Shown: positions 50,809 to 63,808 of the stretch, one piece after another
Layout of the letters: each line of letters opens with the position of its first letter
Numbering within the stretch: position 1 is the first letter of the stretch
Assembly: GCA_947447265.1 (NCBI GenBank)
Contig: CANFKC010000001.1
Span: forward strand, 62,001-126,000
DNA: 64,000 nucleotides
Direction: 5' to 3'
From: Chitinophagaceae bacterium
GTDB lineage: Bacteria; Bacteroidota; Bacteroidia; Chitinophagales; Chitinophagaceae
Notes under the pieces: generated by a model
What the model was told of the DNA's origin: nothing
The model's input: the letters and a program-made list of their open reading frames with translations, nothing else
Databases searched by the model: none
Position numbers and translations under genes: made by a program

Positions 50809-52101
50809 TTAATGCGCTACAACGACCTGTCGCGTGGTTACATTGTTTTGGGTAGCTACCTTTAGCAGGTAATTACCTGCAGGGAAATTCCGGGTGGGAA
50901 TGCGGATGATATACCTGTCGCATAAGGGCACATAAGTATTGTAAACCTCTTTGCCGGTCATATCGTACATAGCAACAATAAAGGCCATTGCATCCTTCAT
51001 ATTTACCCGTAGTGTGAAAATATTGCCGGCGGGATTAGGGAAAATATTAACGTCTGCAACCTCGTCTATGGTGGCAACCTCTGAAGGCGTATAAGGCGAG
51101 TAATAATAATTCCACAAGTAAGGGCCTGTAACCCATGCAGAACCCGTCCATGTTTCGGCAAGCTTTGTTGTTACCTGGTTAAAGGTGTTATACGTATAGG
51201 TATACCGCATTGCATTAACCCATGCTGAGCCATTCCACTTTTGGTCTATCTCTGTAAGCGGCATGCCAGCAGCGGTAAAGTTACTGTAAAGGCTAAGGGA
51301 ATCGTTAAAGCTTCCACTAGCGCTAAATTTTATAAGTGTTTTAGATGTGAGCAAATGCGAGGTTGAATCGTATCTATAGAAAAACTTGCTGGTAACATTG
51401 CTAAAACCAGTTCCATCCCATAAAAAGCGAGTACTGGTTTGCAAATTATTACCACTCCTGTAAGAGTAGTCAAAATCATCGGTGGAGTAAAATGTGCCTT
51501 CTGTATAATCATAGTCTATCTGCTGGCAAAAATTTGAACGGAGGGTATCATAGGCAAATTCCCGCCTTGAAGTGTTAGCCCATGTGCTTCCAGTGCCAAC
51601 CTGGCTCACCATATAGCCAACATTGGTATCTGCATTGATATGAAAATAACTATCGCGCCAAAAAATATCCCAAGCACCACTTGTATTCATGTGCATGGCG
51701 GTTACTGATTGGGGTTTGCCGGTTGCATAGTAGTCTACTATGTATTTATATGCTCCGTTTAAACCGGTGATGCCGGTTAGCCAGTAATCGGCATCAGCAA
51801 CTAACAGGTGGAATTGTGTTCCCGGCACACCAGAACTATCATAGTGTTTTACAATGCGGTGATGCAGCGTAAGGCCGCTGCCGGTAACTGTGCGTGTTAT
51901 TGCGGAATCGTAGTTGAGCGGGTGCACAAGATCGCCACCACGGGGATTGGAATAGAAGTATGTAGTGGTATCTGTTAGTGTAAAAGCGGAGCCCGAATAG
52001 GCGCGTGTAGCCTTTGCTACCAGCCTTGATTGCTGCGCATCAGCGGTGCTGTGCAATAGCAGCAGGGCAATTGTAGCAATAGTGGATAATGTGCTTTTCA
52101 T
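50809..52101 (-). CDS. T9SS cargo protein with type A sorting domain, tandem copy 1
   Basis: The 430-residue protein has a signal peptide (about 1-22, TLSTIATIALLLLHSTADAQ). The body carries repeated W.GS.W / Y.Y.. strand units (TWANTSRREFAYDTLRSNFC, KWNGSAWVNAMRYTYTYNTF, TWTGSAWVTGPYLWNYYYSP), similar in layout to the two neighbours. The last 80 residues are a T9SS sorting domain (VNIFPNPAGNIFTLRVNMKD, GNYLLKVATQNNVTTRQVVV). It is secreted and surface-associated, and its role is unknown. It lies 22 bp after the neighbour at 52124 on the same strand, so a transcript with copies 2 and 3 is possible. Confidence 0.82.
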   Translation of the reverse strand: MKSTLSTIATIALLLLHSTADAQQSRLVAKATRAYSGSAFTLTDTTTYFYSNPRGGDLVHPLNYDSAITRTVTGSGLTLHHRIVKHYDSSGVPGTQFHLLVADADYWLTGITGLNGAYKYIVDYYATGKPQSVTAMHMNTSGAWDIFWRDSYFHINADTNVGYMVSQVGTGSTWANTSRREFAYDTLRSNFCQQIDYDYTEGTFYSTDDFDYSYRSGNNLQTSTRFLWDGTGFSNVTSKFFYRYDSTSHLLTSKTLIKFSASGSFNDSLSLYSNFTAAGMPLTEIDQKWNGSAWVNAMRYTYTYNTFNQVTTKLAETWTGSAWVTGPYLWNYYYSPYTPSEVATIDEVADVNIFPNPAGNIFTLRVNMKDAMAFIVAMYDMTGKEVYNTYVPLCDRYIIRIPTRNFPAGNYLLKVATQNNVTTRQVVVAH

Positions 52102-52123
52102 AAAATATTTTTTCCGGGTTTAA

Positions 52124-53404
52124 TTACTGATGGGAAATAATTACCTTTTCGCTACGTGCACTGTCTCTTCCTGTAACTTTTACCACATAGTTGCCGGCTG
52201 GTAAATGAGTTGTATGGATGTTGGTTTCAGTCTTTGACTTTGCGGCTATATTGGCCTCAAAAACCTCCCGGCCAGCCATATCATACAATGCTATAGTCAG
52301 CGCTGCCGGTTCGGTTTGTTGAATACTGATATGCAACACATCTTTTGCCGGGTTAGGGAAGATACTCAGCTGCATAGTTTCGTCCTTCGACGCTACCGCA
52401 AGCGGGTTATACCCCTCGTAGTAATAATAGCTTAACGACTGCCCCAATGCATATGCCCATGCTGAACCAGACCAGGCATAACCTGTACGAGATGTCATTT
52501 GGTTAAAGCTATTGTAGGTGTAATCAAATTTTTCATAGTTGTACCAAAAACCGGCCCCTGTTGTGTCCCATTGCATGTCTATCTCCAGTAATGGCATATG
52601 GCCGGTTGTAAAAGAGCTATAAGTAAAAAGCCTCTTATTATCCCACGCCCCGGTCGTTGCATTATATACCTGGAATGTTTTGGTAATCAAATTACCCGAG
52701 CCATCATAATTGTAGTTATATCTGAAGCAATATACAATGGTACTACCGCTCCAGTAACCATGGGTACTTGTCGCAAACAGCTCCCTATTGGGTACAGTAT
52801 AGGAGTAATCATTAGTGTTATAAAAAGTGCCTTGCTCATAATCAAAGTCGTACTGCTGGCCCTGGCTATTTGTGGTTCCGGCGCCGTATGTAAATACCCG
52901 CTCACTATCAAGCACAAAACCCGAACTGGTATAGGCATAACGCTTTACATTAAGAATATCGCCCGAGGTAACGTAGGTAAATACTTTCTTATAAGCTGAA
53001 TCCCAGCTTGTACCGCTCCACGTTTCGCATAGCAGTGGTGATGTAAGGTGACCGCCAGATGATGTCATGCTGTGCCTGCATGAATCTCGCCATGTACTTG
53101 CATTCCAGGTACTGGTTGTAGCACGGGTTAATGAACCGGAACCGGTATATGTTTTGAGGATGCGCTTATAGTTGGTAAGCGACGAGCCATAAACCTTTGT
53201 TATTGCTGAGTCGAAATTAAGTGGGTGGCAAAGGTCGCCGCCACGGTGGGTTGCATAGAAGTAGCCTGTGGTATCAATAGGTACGTATGCCGAACCCGTC
53301 CATACATAATTGGCGCGGCCAATGAGGCGCGAGCCTTGTGCATTGGCCTTTTCATGCGATAAAACGATGATGTGCAGCAATAGTATAAGGGCTATATTGT
53401 TCAT
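52124..53404 (-). CDS. T9SS cargo protein with type A sorting domain, tandem copy 2
   Basis: The protein has 426 residues from the ATG at 53402-53404, where the signal peptide (MNNIALILLLHIIVLSHEKA) begins. The longer frame adds 25 residues with no leader. Shared with copies 1 and 3: GSRLIGRANYVWTGSAYVPI, GGDLCHPLNFDSAITKV, the repeated Y.YN...F.Y..W strands (KFDYTYNSFNQMTSRTGYAW), and the sorting domain (LSIFPNPAKDVLHISIQ, AGNYVVKVTGRDSARSEKVI). The repeats resemble RHS/YD-type strand units. Surface-located, function unknown. A repeat-rich gap separates it from copy 3. Confidence 0.82.
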   Translation of the reverse strand: MNNIALILLLHIIVLSHEKANAQGSRLIGRANYVWTGSAYVPIDTTGYFYATHRGGDLCHPLNFDSAITKVYGSSLTNYKRILKTYTGSGSLTRATTSTWNASTWRDSCRHSMTSSGGHLTSPLLCETWSGTSWDSAYKKVFTYVTSGDILNVKRYAYTSSGFVLDSERVFTYGAGTTNSQGQQYDFDYEQGTFYNTNDYSYTVPNRELFATSTHGYWSGSTIVYCFRYNYNYDGSGNLITKTFQVYNATTGAWDNKRLFTYSSFTTGHMPLLEIDMQWDTTGAGFWYNYEKFDYTYNSFNQMTSRTGYAWSGSAWAYALGQSLSYYYYEGYNPLAVASKDETMQLSIFPNPAKDVLHISIQQTEPAALTIALYDMAGREVFEANIAAKSKTETNIHTTHLPAGNYVVKVTGRDSARSEKVIISHQ

Positions 53405-53524
53405 GAGTTTTGATGAGTTTATAAAGTGGAAATTAAATATACGTAAATGTTTTGTGATGTACAAATAGTCTTCCCTCAAAAGTACTAAGTGCGATTGAGT
53501 TGCAGCTTAAACATGTTACTTTTT

Positions 53525-53651
53525 GTGCTGCCGCAAAAAGTAACCAAAAACCGGAATCTTTGGCCTATCGCTACCGCGGGCCAAAGGAGCTAAGCTGCGT
53601 GTTTTGTTGAAGCTTGTTATTCTATTTGTCTGCGCCGGAACGGCGGCGCAG
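53525..53651. repeat. Dispersed repeat (family 'GTGCTGCCGCAAAAAGTAAC'), copy 2
   Basis: It shares both ends with 10359-10490: the GTGCTGCCGCAAAA start and the GAAGCTTGTTATTCTA plus GCGCCGGAACGGCGGCGC end. The middle differs. Confidence 0.75.
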
Positions 53652-53740
53652 GTGTTATGTAGCCAGTTTGTAAGAGCATATGTATATCCCCCAGACAAAA
53701 ATTGTTGTAAATGGTTTTTACACACGTAAAAAGCACATAT

Positions 53741-53763
53741 CGCCCTCGTTTGCAACGAGGATG
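53741..53763. repeat. Palindromic repeat CCCTCGTTTGCAACGAGG
   Basis: Near-perfect palindrome of the family found five times at 50253-50765. Confidence 0.85.
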
Positions 53764-53816
53764 AGTAGAGCCTTTCGTCTAACACCCAAAAAATACTGCC
53801 TGTGATAACTACACGT

Positions 53817-53849
53817 TAAAAGCCCCCGACATATGTCAGGGGCTTTTAA
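53817..53849 (-). terminator. Rho-independent terminator of tandem copy 3
   Basis: The 11-bp stem TTAAAAGCCCC / GGGGCTTTTAA closes around CGACATATGTCA. T-runs stand on both sides. It lies about 20 bp after the stop at 53867. Confidence 0.85.
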
Positions 53850-53866
53850 AACTGTCTTGAAAAATA

Positions 53867-55153
53867 TTAGTGAGCTACTACTATTTCTTTAGTGATCTGT
53901 CCTTTTGAACCAGCTACTTTTACAATGTAGTTGCCAGCTGGGTAGTTATCAGTTGCGAAGCTTGTAGTGTAAGCTGCAGTTGATGGAACGCTCCAAGAGT
54001 TAACTACTTTACCAGTGATATCGAAGATAGAAACTGTGAAAGCCTGAGCTTCGTTCCATTTCAGGTCGATAGAAACTGTGTTCTGAACTGGTACCGGGAA
54101 GATGTTTACAACGCCATTCTCGCGGCTGATAGTGCTAACTGCAGTACCGAAAGAAGAACCATAACGATACATTGCCATTGGATCTCCGTTTACATGCTGC
54201 CAAAAACCAGCAGTGTTCCAAGAGATACCCATCAATGAAGTCAACTGTTCGTGAGTGTTGTAAGTGTAATCATACTGCATCCAGTTGTACCAGAAACCAC
54301 CACCTGTTGTATCCCATTTCTGGTCAATTTCGTTGGTTGGGTTATGGCCCGCTGTGAAACCGCTGTATGTTTTAAGTGTTGTATTATCCCACGCACCGGT
54401 TGAAGAATTGTAAACCTGGTAAGTAGAAGTGATGCGGTTGCCAGCTGCATCGTATGCATAGCTGTAACGAGATGAATTTACAAAGCTAGAACCATTCCAT
54501 ACAGTGTAAGTTGAAGTAGCCAACCTGTTGGCTGTATCATAGTCATAAGCATATTGCTGTGTGTATGTTAAACCAGCAGAACCGTTGTTTGCATCGGTTT
54601 CGAGGGTCATCATACCAGTACCACCATCATATTGATAAACTTTCTGAGAAACGAAGGTTGAAAAGTCAACTCCGGTCCACATATAATATTTATCAGTGAT
54701 CAGGTGACCACCAGAATAGCCATAAACGTTCTTAGAATAGTTATTCCAAACGCTGCCGCTACCAGTTTGGTATACCATGTTGCTGGTTGTACCATCGCCA
54801 TTGTAGAAGTAGTTGAAACGGTTAACGTTGTCCCAACCGCCAATGCTGTTCATAGACAGGTTTGAAGTATTTTTAACAGCGTTGTTGCTGTAAAATTCTT
54901 GTACTGATTTCTTAGATGCAACTGAATCAGTTACCAACCATGTGTTGGATTCATCATATTTCAACTGATGAGTCAGATCTCCGCCCCTTGCCATGTCATC
55001 ATACCTGTAAGCGGTTGAATCAACAGGTACAAAAAATGTACTGTTATTAGACCAATGGGACTGTGATATTAACCTTGAGCCGGTTTGAGCCTGTGCGTTC
55101 TGTAGTAGGAGTACAGGTAATGCAAGTGTGAAGAGTAGCTTCATTCTTTTCAT
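53867..55153 (-). CDS. T9SS cargo protein with type A sorting domain, tandem copy 3
   Basis: The protein has 428 residues from the ATG at 55151-55153. The longer frame begins with TTG and adds three residues; the ATG opens the signal peptide MKRMKLLFTLALPVLLLQNA. The mature part parallels copies 1 and 2 (SRLISQSHWSNNSTFFVPVD, GGDLTHQLKYDE), with strong Y.YD..NR/AGNR strand repeats (YAYDYDTANRLATSTYTVWN; YSYAYDAAGNRITSTYQVYN) like RHS/YD repeats. The sorting domain follows (VNIFPVPVQNTVSIDLKWNE, AGNYIVKVAGSKGQITKEIV), with VPV in place of the usual NPA. Secreted, function unknown. Confidence 0.85.
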   Translation of the reverse strand: MKRMKLLFTLALPVLLLQNAQAQTGSRLISQSHWSNNSTFFVPVDSTAYRYDDMARGGDLTHQLKYDESNTWLVTDSVASKKSVQEFYSNNAVKNTSNLSMNSIGGWDNVNRFNYFYNGDGTTSNMVYQTGSGSVWNNYSKNVYGYSGGHLITDKYYMWTGVDFSTFVSQKVYQYDGGTGMMTLETDANNGSAGLTYTQQYAYDYDTANRLATSTYTVWNGSSFVNSSRYSYAYDAAGNRITSTYQVYNSSTGAWDNTTLKTYSGFTAGHNPTNEIDQKWDTTGGGFWYNWMQYDYTYNTHEQLTSLMGISWNTAGFWQHVNGDPMAMYRYGSSFGTAVSTISRENGVVNIFPVPVQNTVSIDLKWNEAQAFTVSIFDITGKVVNSWSVPSTAAYTTSFATDNYPAGNYIVKVAGSKGQITKEIVVAH

Positions 55154-55162
55154 AATTGGCAA

Positions 55163-55674: not shown

Positions 55675-57528
55675 TTATTTCAGTGTGAGATTAGCACCAA
55701 TCGTCTGGCCGTTCTTGCTGATGGAGTTGTAAGTTGGTATAATGAAGCGCGCACTGTAGTCGTTATCAGAGATGAACTTCAATACATACTCTACTGCAAA
55801 CGCGGGGTCGTTCTTCTTACCCACCAACAGGTATTCAAGGTAGAACAGGCAAATACCAGAATCAAAAGATCCGCCATTGTCAGAGCCTATCCATTTTTCA
55901 GCAAAGGCAACGATGTCGTTCTTGTTGTCCTGTATCCTTTCGTGCAACTGCTTTATTGAAAATACCTTCAGGAATTTCAACCTTTCCACATCACCTTCTA
56001 CATCCACATCATTATTAAGCGTAGCACCACTGCGGCGCGCCACTTCGGCATCAACTTCTTTTACCAGTTTGCTTTTTAACACATAATCTTTTAACGTATC
56101 TTCCGTCATCTGGGCGTTTTCATCGAACACTGCAGGTTTTGCCGGCTTTTCTACGCGCTCATAGAATGGTATGTGTGAATCATCTTCGTCCTTGTTACTA
56201 TCCCTTACCACTTCAGTTCTTCTTTCCACCATGCCATTCACATTCATATTGAAGGTTTCTACCTTGTCAATATTCAATGCTACAGATTCTTCGGCTGGTG
56301 CACTGGCTGATGCCGGGGTTACAACAGCAGGCATTACTGGCTGTGCTGTTTGCTCCCGCACCAGGTTATTAACCTGTGCTGCGCCTGCAAAAGTATTATC
56401 GGCTACATCGTTAATATTCACCGCCAAATTTGATGGATGATTTACACTCATATCCATCACATCCATTTGCGGAATGTGCTGTATTTGTGGTATGGTATTC
56501 GCAATGTGGTTTATGTTATTAACCGCTGGCTGCGCCTGCTGTGGCGTAAAATGCTGCGGTATAGCCTGCTGTAAGTTAGGCTCCCCGTTGTGCGAAAGAT
56601 AATTATTATCAGTGCCTGGACGCTGCATTTCGTTAGCGGCTGGCGGCTGGTATACCTGCTGTTGGGCAGGTTGCTGCACCGGCTGCGGAATTACTTTATT
56701 TATATAGTCATTTACATACTGTTGCGGCTGTTGTACTGGCTGCTGCGGTATAAATTCTTCCGCTACCGGCGGCGCAGGGATATACTGCTGCTGCGGAGGC
56801 GGCGGAGGTGCAACATATTGCTGTTGCGGTGGCGCAGGCTGCTGTACCGGTATGGCTGGCTGCTGCTGGGCTTGTACCGGCGCGGCAACTTGCTGCACGG
56901 GTGGCGCAGGTATTGCTGCCGGTGCAGGCTCATTTAAGGTTTTATGCGCGTCCTGGCCCTGGTCTATCCAGCCGTATTGCGAACTGAGGGTACTTCTTAT
57001 TTTTAGAAATTCAAGATCGGCCATTTCTAATAAAGCGCCTACGCGGTAGAAGTCGCGCTTCATTTCTTCCGGGAAAGTAGCGCTGTCATAACCCAGTTCT
57101 TTTTCAATACCAGACCATGCATCCTGCAGCATAGAGCATACCTGTATCTCAAATTTGGTAGTGCCCAGTCGTTTGTATTCCGTAAGTTCCTGCCTTGCCG
57201 GTTTCAGCGAAGCTACATACTGCACTTGCTTATATGATAAATTATCGGAGCGTAACTTTTTCTTATCTATTGAGCGCTCTTTGTTTACATCAAACTCTGA
57301 ACTGAGCACTTCTGATATTTTGGTTACCGTATCTTCGAAGTAAGTAATTACACGAATTGCAGGTATGTATAGGTATTCGCCGGTTTTGGTCTGCTGCTGA
57401 TCCATTCTGGATTCGATGCGATAATAAGGGATATTATTTTGTATAATAATTTCCTTCACCAGATCTTCCATTTTAACCATGAAAGCGCTGTTAGACTCCA
57501 TGGCTGTTTGATGCTTTTTAGATGGCAT
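55675..57528 (-). CDS. RelA/SpoT-fold protein, probably inactive, with Pro/Gln-rich linker and unknown C-terminal domain
   Basis: The protein has 617 residues. Residues about 20-195 follow the (p)ppGpp synthetase fold. R59 with IPAIRV matches the DLxAIR strand, YKQVQYV matches the GYxSxH segment, and [20 protein letters not shown] is the EIQ helix with E127 kept. Three key positions look changed: the lysine of RxK is E39, the catalytic aspartate is Y54, and the histidine of GYxSxH is Q102. Residues about 200-330 are a Pro/Gln/Ala linker ([20 protein letters not shown]), 330-450 are Asn/Gln/Ala-rich, and 460-617 form an unrecognised domain ([26 protein letters not shown]-type helices). The start is an ATG with a normal leader. 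Confidence 0.75.
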
Positions 57529-57829: not shown

Positions 57830-58144
57830 ATGGAATTGCAACAAACCGCTATTGCGCTGCACGACGAATGGGGAATGGAAATGCCGCAACTGATTTCAGA
57901 AGCCACTATCCTTAAAATGCTTGCGGAGCGGGTAATAACATTGGTCGGGAGGGATTCCGGGCAATTTTTCCAATTAATGTACCAGCTGGATATTTCAGAA
58001 AAAAAATTGCAGGGCGTTATGCATAACGAAGATTTTGCCGACCAGATTGCCCGCCTCATTTACGACCGGCAATTACAAAAGATGGTATCGCGGCAGCAAT
58101 ATAAAAGCCAGGACACTACTACTGACCCAGACTTAAAATGGTAA
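57830..58144 (+). CDS. Small helical protein of unknown function
   Basis: The 104-residue protein is all-helical by composition: QQTAIALHDEWGMEMPQLIS, EATILKMLAERVITLVGRDS, QFFQLMYQLDISEKKLQGVM, DFADQIARLIYDRQLQKMVS. It is soluble, with no leader. It lies next to and divergent from the RelA/SpoT-like gene and about 150 bp before the DUF5686 gene. The clean start and dense helical periodicity favour a real gene. I do not recognise the family. Confidence 0.7.
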   Translation: MELQQTAIALHDEWGMEMPQLISEATILKMLAERVITLVGRDSGQFFQLMYQLDISEKKLQGVMHNEDFADQIARLIYDRQLQKMVSRQQYKSQDTTTDPDLKW

Positions 58145-61035: not shown

Positions 61036-61782
61036 TTGGCAACAGGAAGAATTTACGAACAATTACGTGCATTGAAGGCGCAAAACAAAAGTGGTTTTGC
61101 AGTGCTTGCCGACCCCGATAAAATTGCAGCGGCCGATGTGCCCTACCTGGCTAAGTTGTGCAATGATGCCGGAGTTGATTATTTGTTTATTGGTGGCAGC
61201 CTGCTTATGGCTCACCAGATGGAAGAATGTATAACGCGCTTCAAAGCTGAAAGCGATATCCCGGTAGTACTTTTCCCAGGTAGCCCCAGCCAGGTAACGC
61301 CGCTGGCAGATTCCTTGTTATATCTTTCCCTGATCTCCGGCCGGAATGCAGACTTACTTATAGGCCAGCATGTGGTGTCTGCGCCATTGGTTAAGGCCAG
61401 CGGACTGGAAGTAATATCCACAGGTTATATTTTAATAGATGGCGGTGTGCAAACCACCGTCTCGTATATGAGTAATTCAATGCCGATACCTGCCGATAAG
61501 CCTGAAATAGCCCTATGCACTGCATGGGCGGGCGAACTTCAGGGTAACCACGTTATTTATATGGATGCAGGCAGCGGTGCCCGCAACCCTATAAGCACCG
61601 ACATGATAACCAAGGTGAGCAGCCATATCGATATTCCCCTCTTCGTAGGTGGTGGCATAAGCACCCCACAAAAGGTATATGACAATTGTAAAGCTGGCGC
61701 CAACATAATAGTGGTAGGCAACGCAATTGAACGCGACCCTCTTTTAATAAAGGACCTGGCACAGGCAAGCAAGGGTGTTTAG
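61036..61782 (+). CDS. Geranylgeranylglyceryl phosphate synthase-like protein (PcrB/GGGPS family)
   Basis: The 248-residue protein uses a TTG start at 61036 because no in-frame ATG lies near the conserved N-terminus; AAAGG stands just before it. The TIM-barrel opens SGFAVLADPDKIAAADVPYL (the PDK phosphate site), continues VDYLFIGGSLLM and VVLFPGSPSQVTPLADSL, and ends IPLFVGGGISTPQKVYD (phosphate-binding GGGIS) and ANIIVVGNAIE. It joins a polyprenyl diphosphate to glycerol-1-phosphate, the first ether-lipid step in archaea; bacterial relatives use shorter or longer prenyl chains. The product here cannot be fixed by sequence. A heptanucleotide array starts at the stop codon. Confidence 0.92.
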   Translation: MATGRIYEQLRALKAQNKSGFAVLADPDKIAAADVPYLAKLCNDAGVDYLFIGGSLLMAHQMEECITRFKAESDIPVVLFPGSPSQVTPLADSLLYLSLISGRNADLLIGQHVVSAPLVKASGLEVISTGYILIDGGVQTTVSYMSNSMPIPADKPEIALCTAWAGELQGNHVIYMDAGSGARNPISTDMITKVSSHIDIPLFVGGGISTPQKVYDNCKAGANIIVVGNAIERDPLLIKDLAQASKGV

Positions 61783-62547: not shown

Positions 62548-63636
62548 CTAGCGTTCGTCAAAATCTATCACTACCCTTTCGGTTCTGGGGTGGGCCTGGC
62601 AAGTGAGTACAAAGCCTTTGGCTACCTCATCGTGTTCCAAGGCATAGTTTACCTCCATTTCAACTTCGCCTTCCATTACACGGGCACGGCAGGTGCAACA
62701 CACCCCACCCTTGCAGGCATAAGGCAAGTCAGCACCATTGCGCAATGCAGCATCTAATATACTCTCTCCAACGAAGGGAATATCCATTGTAAACGTAGTT
62801 CCGTCAAGCCTTATGCTTACGCTGCTGCTGGCACCTTTATTTACGTTGTGACTAGTCACCCATTTTTCATGTGTAGCTTTAGGCTGGTCGGGGCTGGTAA
62901 ACAGCTCTATATGTATTTTACCTGATGGTAAACCAAGATCAATCAATTGCTGCTTTACCGAAAGTATCATCTCCTCCGGGCCGCAAATAAAAGTTTCATC
63001 AATGGTATCCAGGTCTATCAAACTGTCGCAGAACTCCTTGCATTTTGCTGCGTCTATGCGGCCTGTAAAGAGTGGCATTTCAATGTACTCGCGGCTGAGC
63101 AGGTTATATACCCTTACGCGCTGCATGTACTTATTTTTCAACGCTTCAATCGCTTCCCTGAAAATAATGGAGCTCTTCGACCTGTTGCCATAAATAAGTG
63201 TAAAATGGCTGTTAGGTTCATTTTCAAGCACCGTTTTCATAATGCTCATTACCGGGGTAATGCCACTACCCGAAACAAAGGCCAGGTAGTTTTTGTACTT
63301 GCCTTCTGATTTGCCCGGGGTGAATTTACCCATTGGCGGCATCACCTCTAAAATATCGCCGGCTTTAATACCACCATTGGCGTAAGTCGAAAATTTACCA
63401 CCTTCAACCTTCTTAATTGCTACGCGCAACTCCCCATCATTCGGGCTGCTGCAAATAGAGTAAGAACGACGCACTTCTGCACCATCAATAATTGTTTTGA
63501 AGGTAAGGTACTGCCCCGGCAGAAACCCGAACAGTTCAGCCTGTTGCTGGGGAATATCGAATGCTATGGAAACACAATCAGATGTCTCTGACCGAACATC
63601 CTTAACCTTTAACGCATGAAATTTGAAGCTTGACAT
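62548..63636 (-). CDS. PaaE-like FAD/NAD(P)H and 2Fe-2S reductase
   Basis: The protein has 362 residues from the ATG at 63634-63636. The longer frame adds 12 residues encoded by the heptanucleotide repeat. An FAD-binding domain (about 1-105) has the flavin motif RRSYSICSS; an NAD(P)-binding domain (about 110-240) has GSGITPVMSIMKTVL and CGPEEM; a C-terminal ferredoxin (about 270-362) has CKGGVCCTC (C-x4-C-x2-C) and the fourth cysteine in LTCQAHP. This is the domain order of the phenylacetyl-CoA epoxidase reductase PaaE. No paaA-D genes lie nearby, so a general electron-donor role is equally possible. Confidence 0.9.
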   Translation of the reverse strand: MSSFKFHALKVKDVRSETSDCVSIAFDIPQQQAELFGFLPGQYLTFKTIIDGAEVRRSYSICSSPNDGELRVAIKKVEGGKFSTYANGGIKAGDILEVMPPMGKFTPGKSEGKYKNYLAFVSGSGITPVMSIMKTVLENEPNSHFTLIYGNRSKSSIIFREAIEALKNKYMQRVRVYNLLSREYIEMPLFTGRIDAAKCKEFCDSLIDLDTIDETFICGPEEMILSVKQQLIDLGLPSGKIHIELFTSPDQPKATHEKWVTSHNVNKGASSSVSIRLDGTTFTMDIPFVGESILDAALRNGADLPYACKGGVCCTCRARVMEGEVEMEVNYALEHDEVAKGFVLTCQAHPRTERVVIDFDER

Positions 63637-63642
63637 ATGGAT

Positions 63643-63808
63643 AGTTGACAGTTGGCAATTCGCAGTCGGCAATATTCAACTAAATAAGTTGGCCGTTGAA
63701 TGCGGCGCAAAGATAACAGTTTACAGTTAACAGTTTATAGTTGGCAATTGGCAGTGGGCAGTCCACAATTCAGTTGGCAGTTGGCAGTCAGCAGTGGGCA
63801 GTCAGCAG
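63643..63808. repeat. Heptanucleotide tandem repeats CAGTTGG-like, two stretches
   Basis: Two stretches (63643-63677 and 63717-63808) are built of 7-bp units such as CAGTTGG, CAATTGG, CAGTGGG and CAGTCAG with point changes. The spacer between them has no clear unit. The frame 63700-63882 is repeat-derived and is not called as a gene. Confidence 0.88.

Follow-up and report, generated by a model that had tools for sequence, protein, structure and literature searches.

The gene at positions 55675-57528 on the reverse strand of the window, by which we mean the whole 64,000-nucleotide stretch that was analysed, is an uninterrupted frame of 617 codons for a 617-residue protein that belongs to the RSH superfamily by its sequence and predicted fold, that its residues mark as carrying a pseudo-SYNTH (synthetase) domain, and that has the domain order of the "long" small alarmone synthetases (SAS) of phages. 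Residue comparisons indicate that most of the active site has been lost across the protein family to which it belongs, and that the synthetase is probably inactive, whereas substitution patterns indicate purifying selection on both of its folded domains. The explanation that we favour, with a probability that we put slightly below one half, is that the protein is a domesticated pseudoenzyme whose dead SYNTH domain would form an oligomer and so act as a scaffold, from which the C-terminal domain would be offered to a partner in the cell.

Domain organisation and the catalytic site

Pfam matches RelA_SpoT (PF04607) to residues 36-149 with 31.4 bits (cut-off 27; E 2.4e-7), and this is the only Pfam family found at E <= 1 over the 617 residues, no hydrolase domain being among the matches; the NCBIfam YjbM model scores 18.8 bits, far under its cut-off of 320. 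An AlphaFold2 model of the whole protein, computed as a monomer from 54 sequences (the window protein, 22 relatives from genome contigs and 31 viral relatives), has two confident domains flanking a disordered middle, with ten-residue mean pLDDT values of 84-97 for residues 11-180 (except residues 81-100, at 55-61), 33-51 for residues 191-450, and 87-97 for residues 471-600. The SYNTH part of this model resembles RelQ (5dec_B) with a Z score of 14.8 and an rmsd of 3.3 Å over 170 residues, which identifies it as a SAS fold, and its top Foldseek match is 2be3_B (E 2.4e-6). A Pfam score above the curated cut-off, together with the SYNTH fold, places the protein in the RelA/SpoT superfamily. The synthetase-like fold that a sequence-only reading of this DNA had proposed is therefore present in the predicted structure, and the long Pro/Gln-rich disordered linker of the same reading is equally evident, with 15% P, 15% Q and pLDDT values of 33-51. 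The features of the gene are collected in Table 1.

Table 1. Coordinates within the window of the pseudo-synthetase gene, its parts and the divergent neighbouring gene.
Feature	Positions	Strand	Evidence
Whole gene: pseudo-SAS domain, linker and C-terminal domain	55675..57528	-	Open frame; 11/11 genus genomes
SYNTH (RelA_SpoT) fold, catalytically degenerate, residues 10-185	56974..57501	-	Pfam 31.4 bits; RelQ Z 14.8; catalytic-residue table
Alpha-2 deletion point, residues 43-52; Lys80/K243 site is Asp43	57373..57402	-	Gap in 29/29 family rows; AlphaFold2 model
Degenerate G-loop LSYKQVQYV, residues 97-105 (L064: FGYRSLHYV)	57214..57240	-	Alignments
Pro/Gln-rich disordered linker, residues 196-469	56122..56943	-	Composition; AlphaFold2 pLDDT
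Short linear motif of 24 residues, linker residues 416-439	56212..56283	-	E < 1e-9 in 16/29 family rows
C-terminal domain, residues 470-617, most conserved part	55678..56121	-	pLDDT 90.8; hhalign 97.6%; phrog_9640 E 4.1e-9
Divergent 104-aa gene	57830..58144	+	10/11 genus genomes; adjacent in G000 and G202 only

In SaRelP (PMC5794853), the adenine is stacked between Arg78 and Arg112, the phosphates are contacted by Lys80, Ser84, Lys88 and Arg91 and the ribose by His190, while Asp107 and Glu174 are the Mg ligands and the G-loop residue Tyr151 serves the guanosine nucleotide. Our alignment comprises 29 family rows, 22 other RelA_SpoT proteins (two of which mislead, L067 because the wrong stretch is aligned and L083 because it is partial), the Rel of the same genome, and 58 viral-contig relatives, these being the distinct proteins from 77 loci with phmmer E <= 1e-5 to L064, an intact-site relative of the family; L011, which has an in-frame stop, was left out of both the alignment and the tree described below. 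The SaRelP sites were placed on the family by motif spacing and not by aligning SaRelP itself, K243 being equated with Lys80 and, by the same spacing, D264 with Asp107. K243 and D264 are RelSeq numbers for these two sites, with H312 for the His of the G-loop, and the Ser and His of the G-loop count likewise as sites of active SAS. Counts among the viral rows are given over 57 or 56 because the catalytic region is absent from the short row L133, and L099 stops before EIQIR.

The losses run through the whole family. Lys is found at the Lys80 site in 0/29 rows (Glu 16, Asp 12, Val 1, and hence acidic in 28), and Lys88 is absent from all 29 with the deletion of the alpha-2 helix. Asp107 is retained in a single row and the G-loop His in two, the Arg that follows EIQ has been replaced throughout (Cys 18, Ser 11), and the His190 site holds Lys (25), Arg (3) or Ala (1) but never His. 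The Arg112 type survives in all 29 rows and Glu174 in 27; 18 rows keep the G-loop Tyr, and 10 the Arg78 type. In the readable viral rows, by comparison, Lys80, Lys88, Asp107, the Tyr, the His, His190 and both arginines are intact in 57/57, and Glu174 and the Arg that follows EIQ are intact in 56/56; the Arg91 site (Lys or Arg in 42/57) and Ser84 (48/57) are poor markers in these rows. Eight family rows (L047, L050, L051, L053, L057, L037, L060 and L008) form a subclade in which SYNTH is more eroded and the G-loop Tyr is missing.

In the window protein the lost sites are occupied by Asp43 (K243/Lys80), Tyr54 (D264/Asp107), Gln103 (H312) and Lys143 (His190). The Gly, Ser and His of the G-loop are gone, the Ser having given way to Gln101 and the His to Gln103, Cys131 replaces the Arg of EIQIR, and in the AlphaFold2 model strand 37-46 runs to strand 52-62 with the alpha-2 helix, the bearer of phosphate-binding residues, missing between them. 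Arg41 (Arg78 site), Arg59 (Arg112 site), Tyr99 (G-loop Tyr) and Glu127 are retained. As a result, the residue set of an active SAS (Lys80, Lys88, Asp107, Glu174 and the G-loop Tyr) is reduced to Glu127 and Tyr99, and the same losses leave no intact pyrophosphokinase active site of the CapRel/toxSAS type. Three altered catalytic sites had been described from the sequence alone, with Glu, Tyr and Gln at the Lys, Asp and His sites next to a kept EIQ helix. The alterations prove to be family-wide in the 29 rows, against intact viral sites; Tyr54 and Gln103 stand, but the multiple alignment puts Asp43 at the Lys site, the Glu having been a register error, and EIQ is kept within a motif that now reads EIQVC. 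The loss of alpha-2 with the second Lys, of the Arg after EIQ and of the His190 site goes beyond that earlier list. The alternative that a proper alignment restores the catalytic residues was rejected, the 29-row table giving the opposite for both Lys, the Asp and the His.

The linker varies from 153 to 444 residues among the 28 rows that have both domains. Because the model of its 24-residue motif was built from 12 of the 16 rows in which the motif is found, four of these are independent finds; of the 28 rows whose linker is complete, 12 do not have the motif, and it is present in all eight rows of the eroded subclade, in which the C-terminal domain also stays conserved. Folded alone, the C-terminal domain (pLDDT 90.8, pTM 0.85) is predicted to have two short strands and seven helices, of which one is 23 residues long. 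Against 350,542 PDB chains Foldseek gives it no match at E <= 0.001 (best E 1.9), and none in BFVD (best E 0.53), and its best VIA Z score is 3.6. The Foldseek and VIA searches therefore do not recognise in it the pseudo-zinc-finger antitoxin domain with YXXY motif of CapRel, although a missing match is no proof that the two folds differ. Pfam names no family for the domain (one sub-threshold hit, E 0.092) and NCBIfam matches the SYNTH part alone. The predicted fold is thus unrecognised and may be new, the lack of a PDB match being no proof of novelty.

The C-terminal domain does, however, have relatives. When 27 family C-termini were compared by hhalign with nine from other long proteins, the match had a probability of 97.6% and an identity of 11%, both alignments being thin (Neff 1.6 and 3.8). 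The phage family phrog_9640, of 365 residues and with no described function, spans both the SYNTH and the C-terminal parts; it matches the whole window protein at E 5.8e-46 in two stretches, and the C-terminal domain alone at E 4.1e-9, domain residues 8-116 aligning with profile positions 227-342. This profile match over both domains makes the window protein a member of phrog_9640. By eye, IVAFAEKWI of the window protein corresponds to IVAFAKHWI of L064, and a second stretch of 10 residues aligns with LFYLCYVLIG of L064. The description of this domain as unrecognised consequently stands with respect to the PDB and does not stand with respect to phage-borne long SAS, to whose C-terminus it is homologous.

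Relatives, spread and genomic setting

In a tree of 107 SYNTH domains (107 of 110 rows; L067, L083 and L133 were left out), the 29 family rows form one clade with 100/100 support. This clade adjoins L064 (97/75) within a 100/98 clade that also contains L063, L010, L079, which is a protein of Bacteroides finegoldii plasmid 44, and three viral proteins, and all of these relatives have intact sites. The tree is midpoint-rooted with long branches (L001, L077, L074, L002 and others), and the placement of L064 has an SH-aLRT value of 75 only; the family is nested among intact relatives only if the root lies outside the 100/98 clade. On this phylogeny the nearest relatives are phage/plasmid-type long SAS, with a SYNTH domain, a short linker, a C-terminal domain and intact sites, and the catalytic residues would most simply have been lost once. 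Long SAS with intact sites are common on viral contigs (60 IMG/VR loci, L084-L143), and those tested match phrog_9640. Similar proteins are encoded by a filamentous phage, by a 3.5-kb Klebsiella plasmid, and by a Bacteroides plasmid with phage genes, where the gene lies between the terminase region and an HNH endonuclease gene. Two pattern scans, which find close relatives only, detected no member of the family on viral contigs.

The gene is present in 11/11 genomes of the window's genus, in matches without stops, and its distribution beyond the genus, surveyed in Bacteroidota as had been suggested from the sequence alone, is narrow. Searched with the C-terminal domain, it appears in 10 of the 294 genomes of the taxonomic family, which represent 3/101 genera, and when 395 genomes sampled across the class were searched, the window's own was the only one with a hit. 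Both searches used a single sequence as query and so overlook distant relatives, the C-termini of L064 and of the viral proteins not being recovered. Nine of the ten hits lie in open frames of 501-788 residues and the tenth, in G046, is a 119-residue fragment at a contig edge in a genome with a SYNTH match on another contig, and the idea that the C-terminal domain occurs alone or in other architectures was rejected on these searches. In the collection of genome contigs there are 24 loci, all titled Bacteroidota or groups within it and 23 of them metagenome-assembled; the family member L043 is the orthologue in Flavipsychrobacter stenotrophus RB1R16.

Mean pairwise identity is 56% in SYNTH compared to 78% in the C-terminal domain, which has long invariant stretches. 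NG86 estimates of dN/dS are 0.007-0.084 in 13 of 20 tests (10 pairs, two domains each), the other seven being saturated or undefined. Nine of the 13 defined values rest on dS > 1, and to these belong the weak values of the pair with the window protein, for which dS is 3.0 and 1.1. The four tests with dS < 1 (three for SYNTH, one for the C-terminal domain) give 0.012-0.052. The densest conserved segment of SYNTH is an 18-residue stretch that we take for alpha-5 from its position in the model, and alpha-1 has four invariant residues.

The divergent 104-aa gene upstream, which has no family above cut-off in Pfam or NCBIfam, had been remarked on as a pairing of interest. Both genes are real and divergent, but among the ten genus genomes that carry the 104-aa gene the two are neighbours in only two and lie on different contigs in the other eight, and in L043 and L044, which have full flanks, other genes are found upstream of the pseudo-synthetase; a conserved gene pair was therefore rejected. 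Of 25 loci sampled, 23 of which have readable upstream DNA, 12 have genes of a single cluster directly upstream, in the same direction and at a distance of 101-292 bases between open frames, and Pfam assigns this gene to TruB in the three cases checked (L048, L054 and L056). A TruB-type neighbour, which is a weak pointer to translation or tRNA, is seen in 0/10 genus loci compared (one without upstream DNA), and a gap of this size is long for an operon. The same genome has genes for Rel (a frame of 760 aa) and for another SAS (380 aa); each has the key Lys, Asp, Tyr, His and Glu residues, so that the cell should not depend on the pseudo-synthetase for (p)ppGpp. In L002 (100-2352) this other SAS gene stands head to head with one whose product resembles an IS1595-type transposase.

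Several other genes of the window were observed in passing. At 50809-55162 (reverse strand) there are three proteins of 430-451 residues from one cluster; the one at 53867-55162 matches DUF3836 and carries a Por secretion tail (PF18962). In several loci of the genus the gene after the pseudo-synthetase belongs to this cluster too. A member of the geranylgeranylglyceryl/heptaprenylglyceryl phosphate synthase family, an archaeal-lipid type of enzyme that is here found in a bacterium, is encoded at 61036-61782 on the forward strand (NF003198, 264 bits; cut-off 247), and a PaaE-like reductase subunit of phenylacetyl-CoA epoxidase at 62548-63672 on the reverse strand (TIGR02160, 475 bits).

Possible functions of the pseudo-synthetase

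In the domesticated scaffold that we favour, a phage/plasmid-type long SAS would have lost catalysis, and its linker is now hundreds of disordered residues long. The dead SYNTH domain would then serve for oligomerisation, and the long linker would tether several C-terminal domains, perhaps along with several linker motifs, all of which would bind a constant housekeeping partner. RelP and RelQ tetramers form via alpha-1 and alpha-5/6 (PMC5794853), and we think that SYNTH still oligomerises because the putative alpha-5 is its densest conserved segment and alpha-1 has four invariant residues. The conserved C-terminal surface, in turn, argues for a constant cellular partner. Support for the plausibility of a scaffold is provided by Acinetobacter baumannii SpoT, in which a dead SYNTH domain is kept in a regulatory role (PMC9974481), and which also means that a pseudo-SYNTH as such is not new. 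Against the scaffold, residues of the Arg112, Glu174, Tyr and Arg78 types remain, all four of them in the window protein, although a pure scaffold would have no need of them, and the linker motif is gone in 12/28 rows. A (p)ppGpp- or nucleotide-binding scaffold made of an inactive synthetase, a linker and a C-terminal domain had been proposed in the sequence-only reading; its anatomy is supported by Pfam and AlphaFold2, the catalytic-residue table and pLDDT, its binding role is conjectural, and its C-terminal domain belongs with the SYNTH domain, as the phage-borne long SAS show. The fuller history, in which a mobile-element long SAS was domesticated once, was stripped of catalysis and is now a core scaffold of a Bacteroidota clade whose C-terminal domain, of unrecognised fold, binds a conserved partner, is one that we put forward tentatively. 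If it is true, the partner of the domesticated scaffold might show what the phage enzymes came to sense through their C-terminal domain.

Retention of Arg41, Arg59, Tyr99 and Glu127 in the window protein makes a nucleotide or alarmone sensor the main rival, in which the dead SYNTH domain would have kept the ability to bind a nucleotide such as ATP, GTP or (p)ppGpp, either in the former active site or in a central cleft like that of RelQ, and would signal the binding to the C-terminal domain. The adenine-stacking types (roles from PMC5794853) persist at Arg112 in every family row and at Arg78 in about a third of them, both in the window protein, the G-loop Tyr and the Glu are kept in 18/29 and 27/29 rows, and alarmones should be present in a cell that encodes its own Rel and another SAS with key residues. 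This has to be weighed against the loss of the phosphate lysines, the Mg aspartate, the Gly and His of the G-loop and the ribose His, against the eight-row subclade that lacks the G-loop Tyr, and against A. baumannii SpoT, which has a degenerate SYNTH site and does not bind GDP (PMC9974481). We consider a sensor rather unlikely.

A decoy or antitoxin, in which the dead homologue neutralises the active long SAS of incoming phages and plasmids through mixed oligomers or the C-terminal domain, seems more doubtful still. Sequestration of toxic SAS by other proteins has been described (PMC11782079), and intact-site relatives, some of which group with the family, are found on phage, plasmid and viral contigs. 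Nevertheless, a C-terminal domain with 78% mean identity across genera is unlike an arms-race surface. In addition, PADLOC returned nothing at E <= 1, PDC-S33 included, for the window protein and its 104-aa neighbour, the two proteins searched, whereas PDC-S33 matches 6/6 intact-site relatives over the SYNTH part (2e-15 to 2e-19).

Pseudoenzymes at times prove active, and Glu127 (27/29) and Cys/Ser131 (29/29) in the old active-site strand might belong to a new residue set for some other nucleotidyl- or pyrophosphoryl-transfer chemistry. Such a rewired enzyme is nevertheless highly improbable given that the Lys80 site is acidic in 28/29 rows and that the Asp264 and His312 sites differ among members. 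A decaying gene or pseudogene without function, to which the lost catalytic residues might point, was rejected as the least credible reading of all, given dN/dS values well below 1 where defined in both domains of other family members (the window's own pair being weak), the stop-free matches in 11/11 genus genomes and the confident folds.

Comparison with known systems

As far as we know, every dead SYNTH domain described so far lies within a long RSH enzyme. No subgroup named like this family appears among the 30 RSH subgroups tabulated by Atkinson 2011, in the part of that survey available (PMC3153485), and no description of the family was found in the titles and abstract beginnings of the open-licence PMC literature among the matches listed. 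A pseudo-SAS that is under selection and has a conserved C-terminal domain offers a handle on a domain common to many phage SAS (phrog_9640), and would show that a mobile enzyme of alarmone or toxin type has been domesticated into a core gene.

The window protein shares the SYNTH fold of RelQ/SAS1 (YjbM) and RelP/SAS2 (YwaC) over residues 10-185, with Z 14.8 to RelQ. Unlike these enzymes, it lacks the phosphate-, Mg- and ribose-binding residues and alpha-2, and it has a long linker and an additional C-terminal domain. SpoT[Hs] of Moraxellaceae likewise keeps a dead SYNTH domain in a non-catalytic role, although it is a long RSH enzyme with an active hydrolase domain (PMC9974481), a domain that was not found in the window protein. 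CapRel, a fused toxSAS, also joins SYNTH and a C-terminal regulatory domain in one chain and gives Z 10.0 over SYNTH; however, it pyrophosphorylates tRNA as an active enzyme, and its most variable part is the C-terminal pseudo-zinc-finger domain (PMC9712102), whereas in the present family it is SYNTH that has degenerated and the C-terminal domain that is least variable. The phrog_9640 long SAS of phages and plasmids (L064, L079 and the IMG/VR loci) have the same domain order as the window protein, are homologous to it in both domains and fall in the same clade. These proteins keep their catalytic residues and, by inspection, have a short linker.
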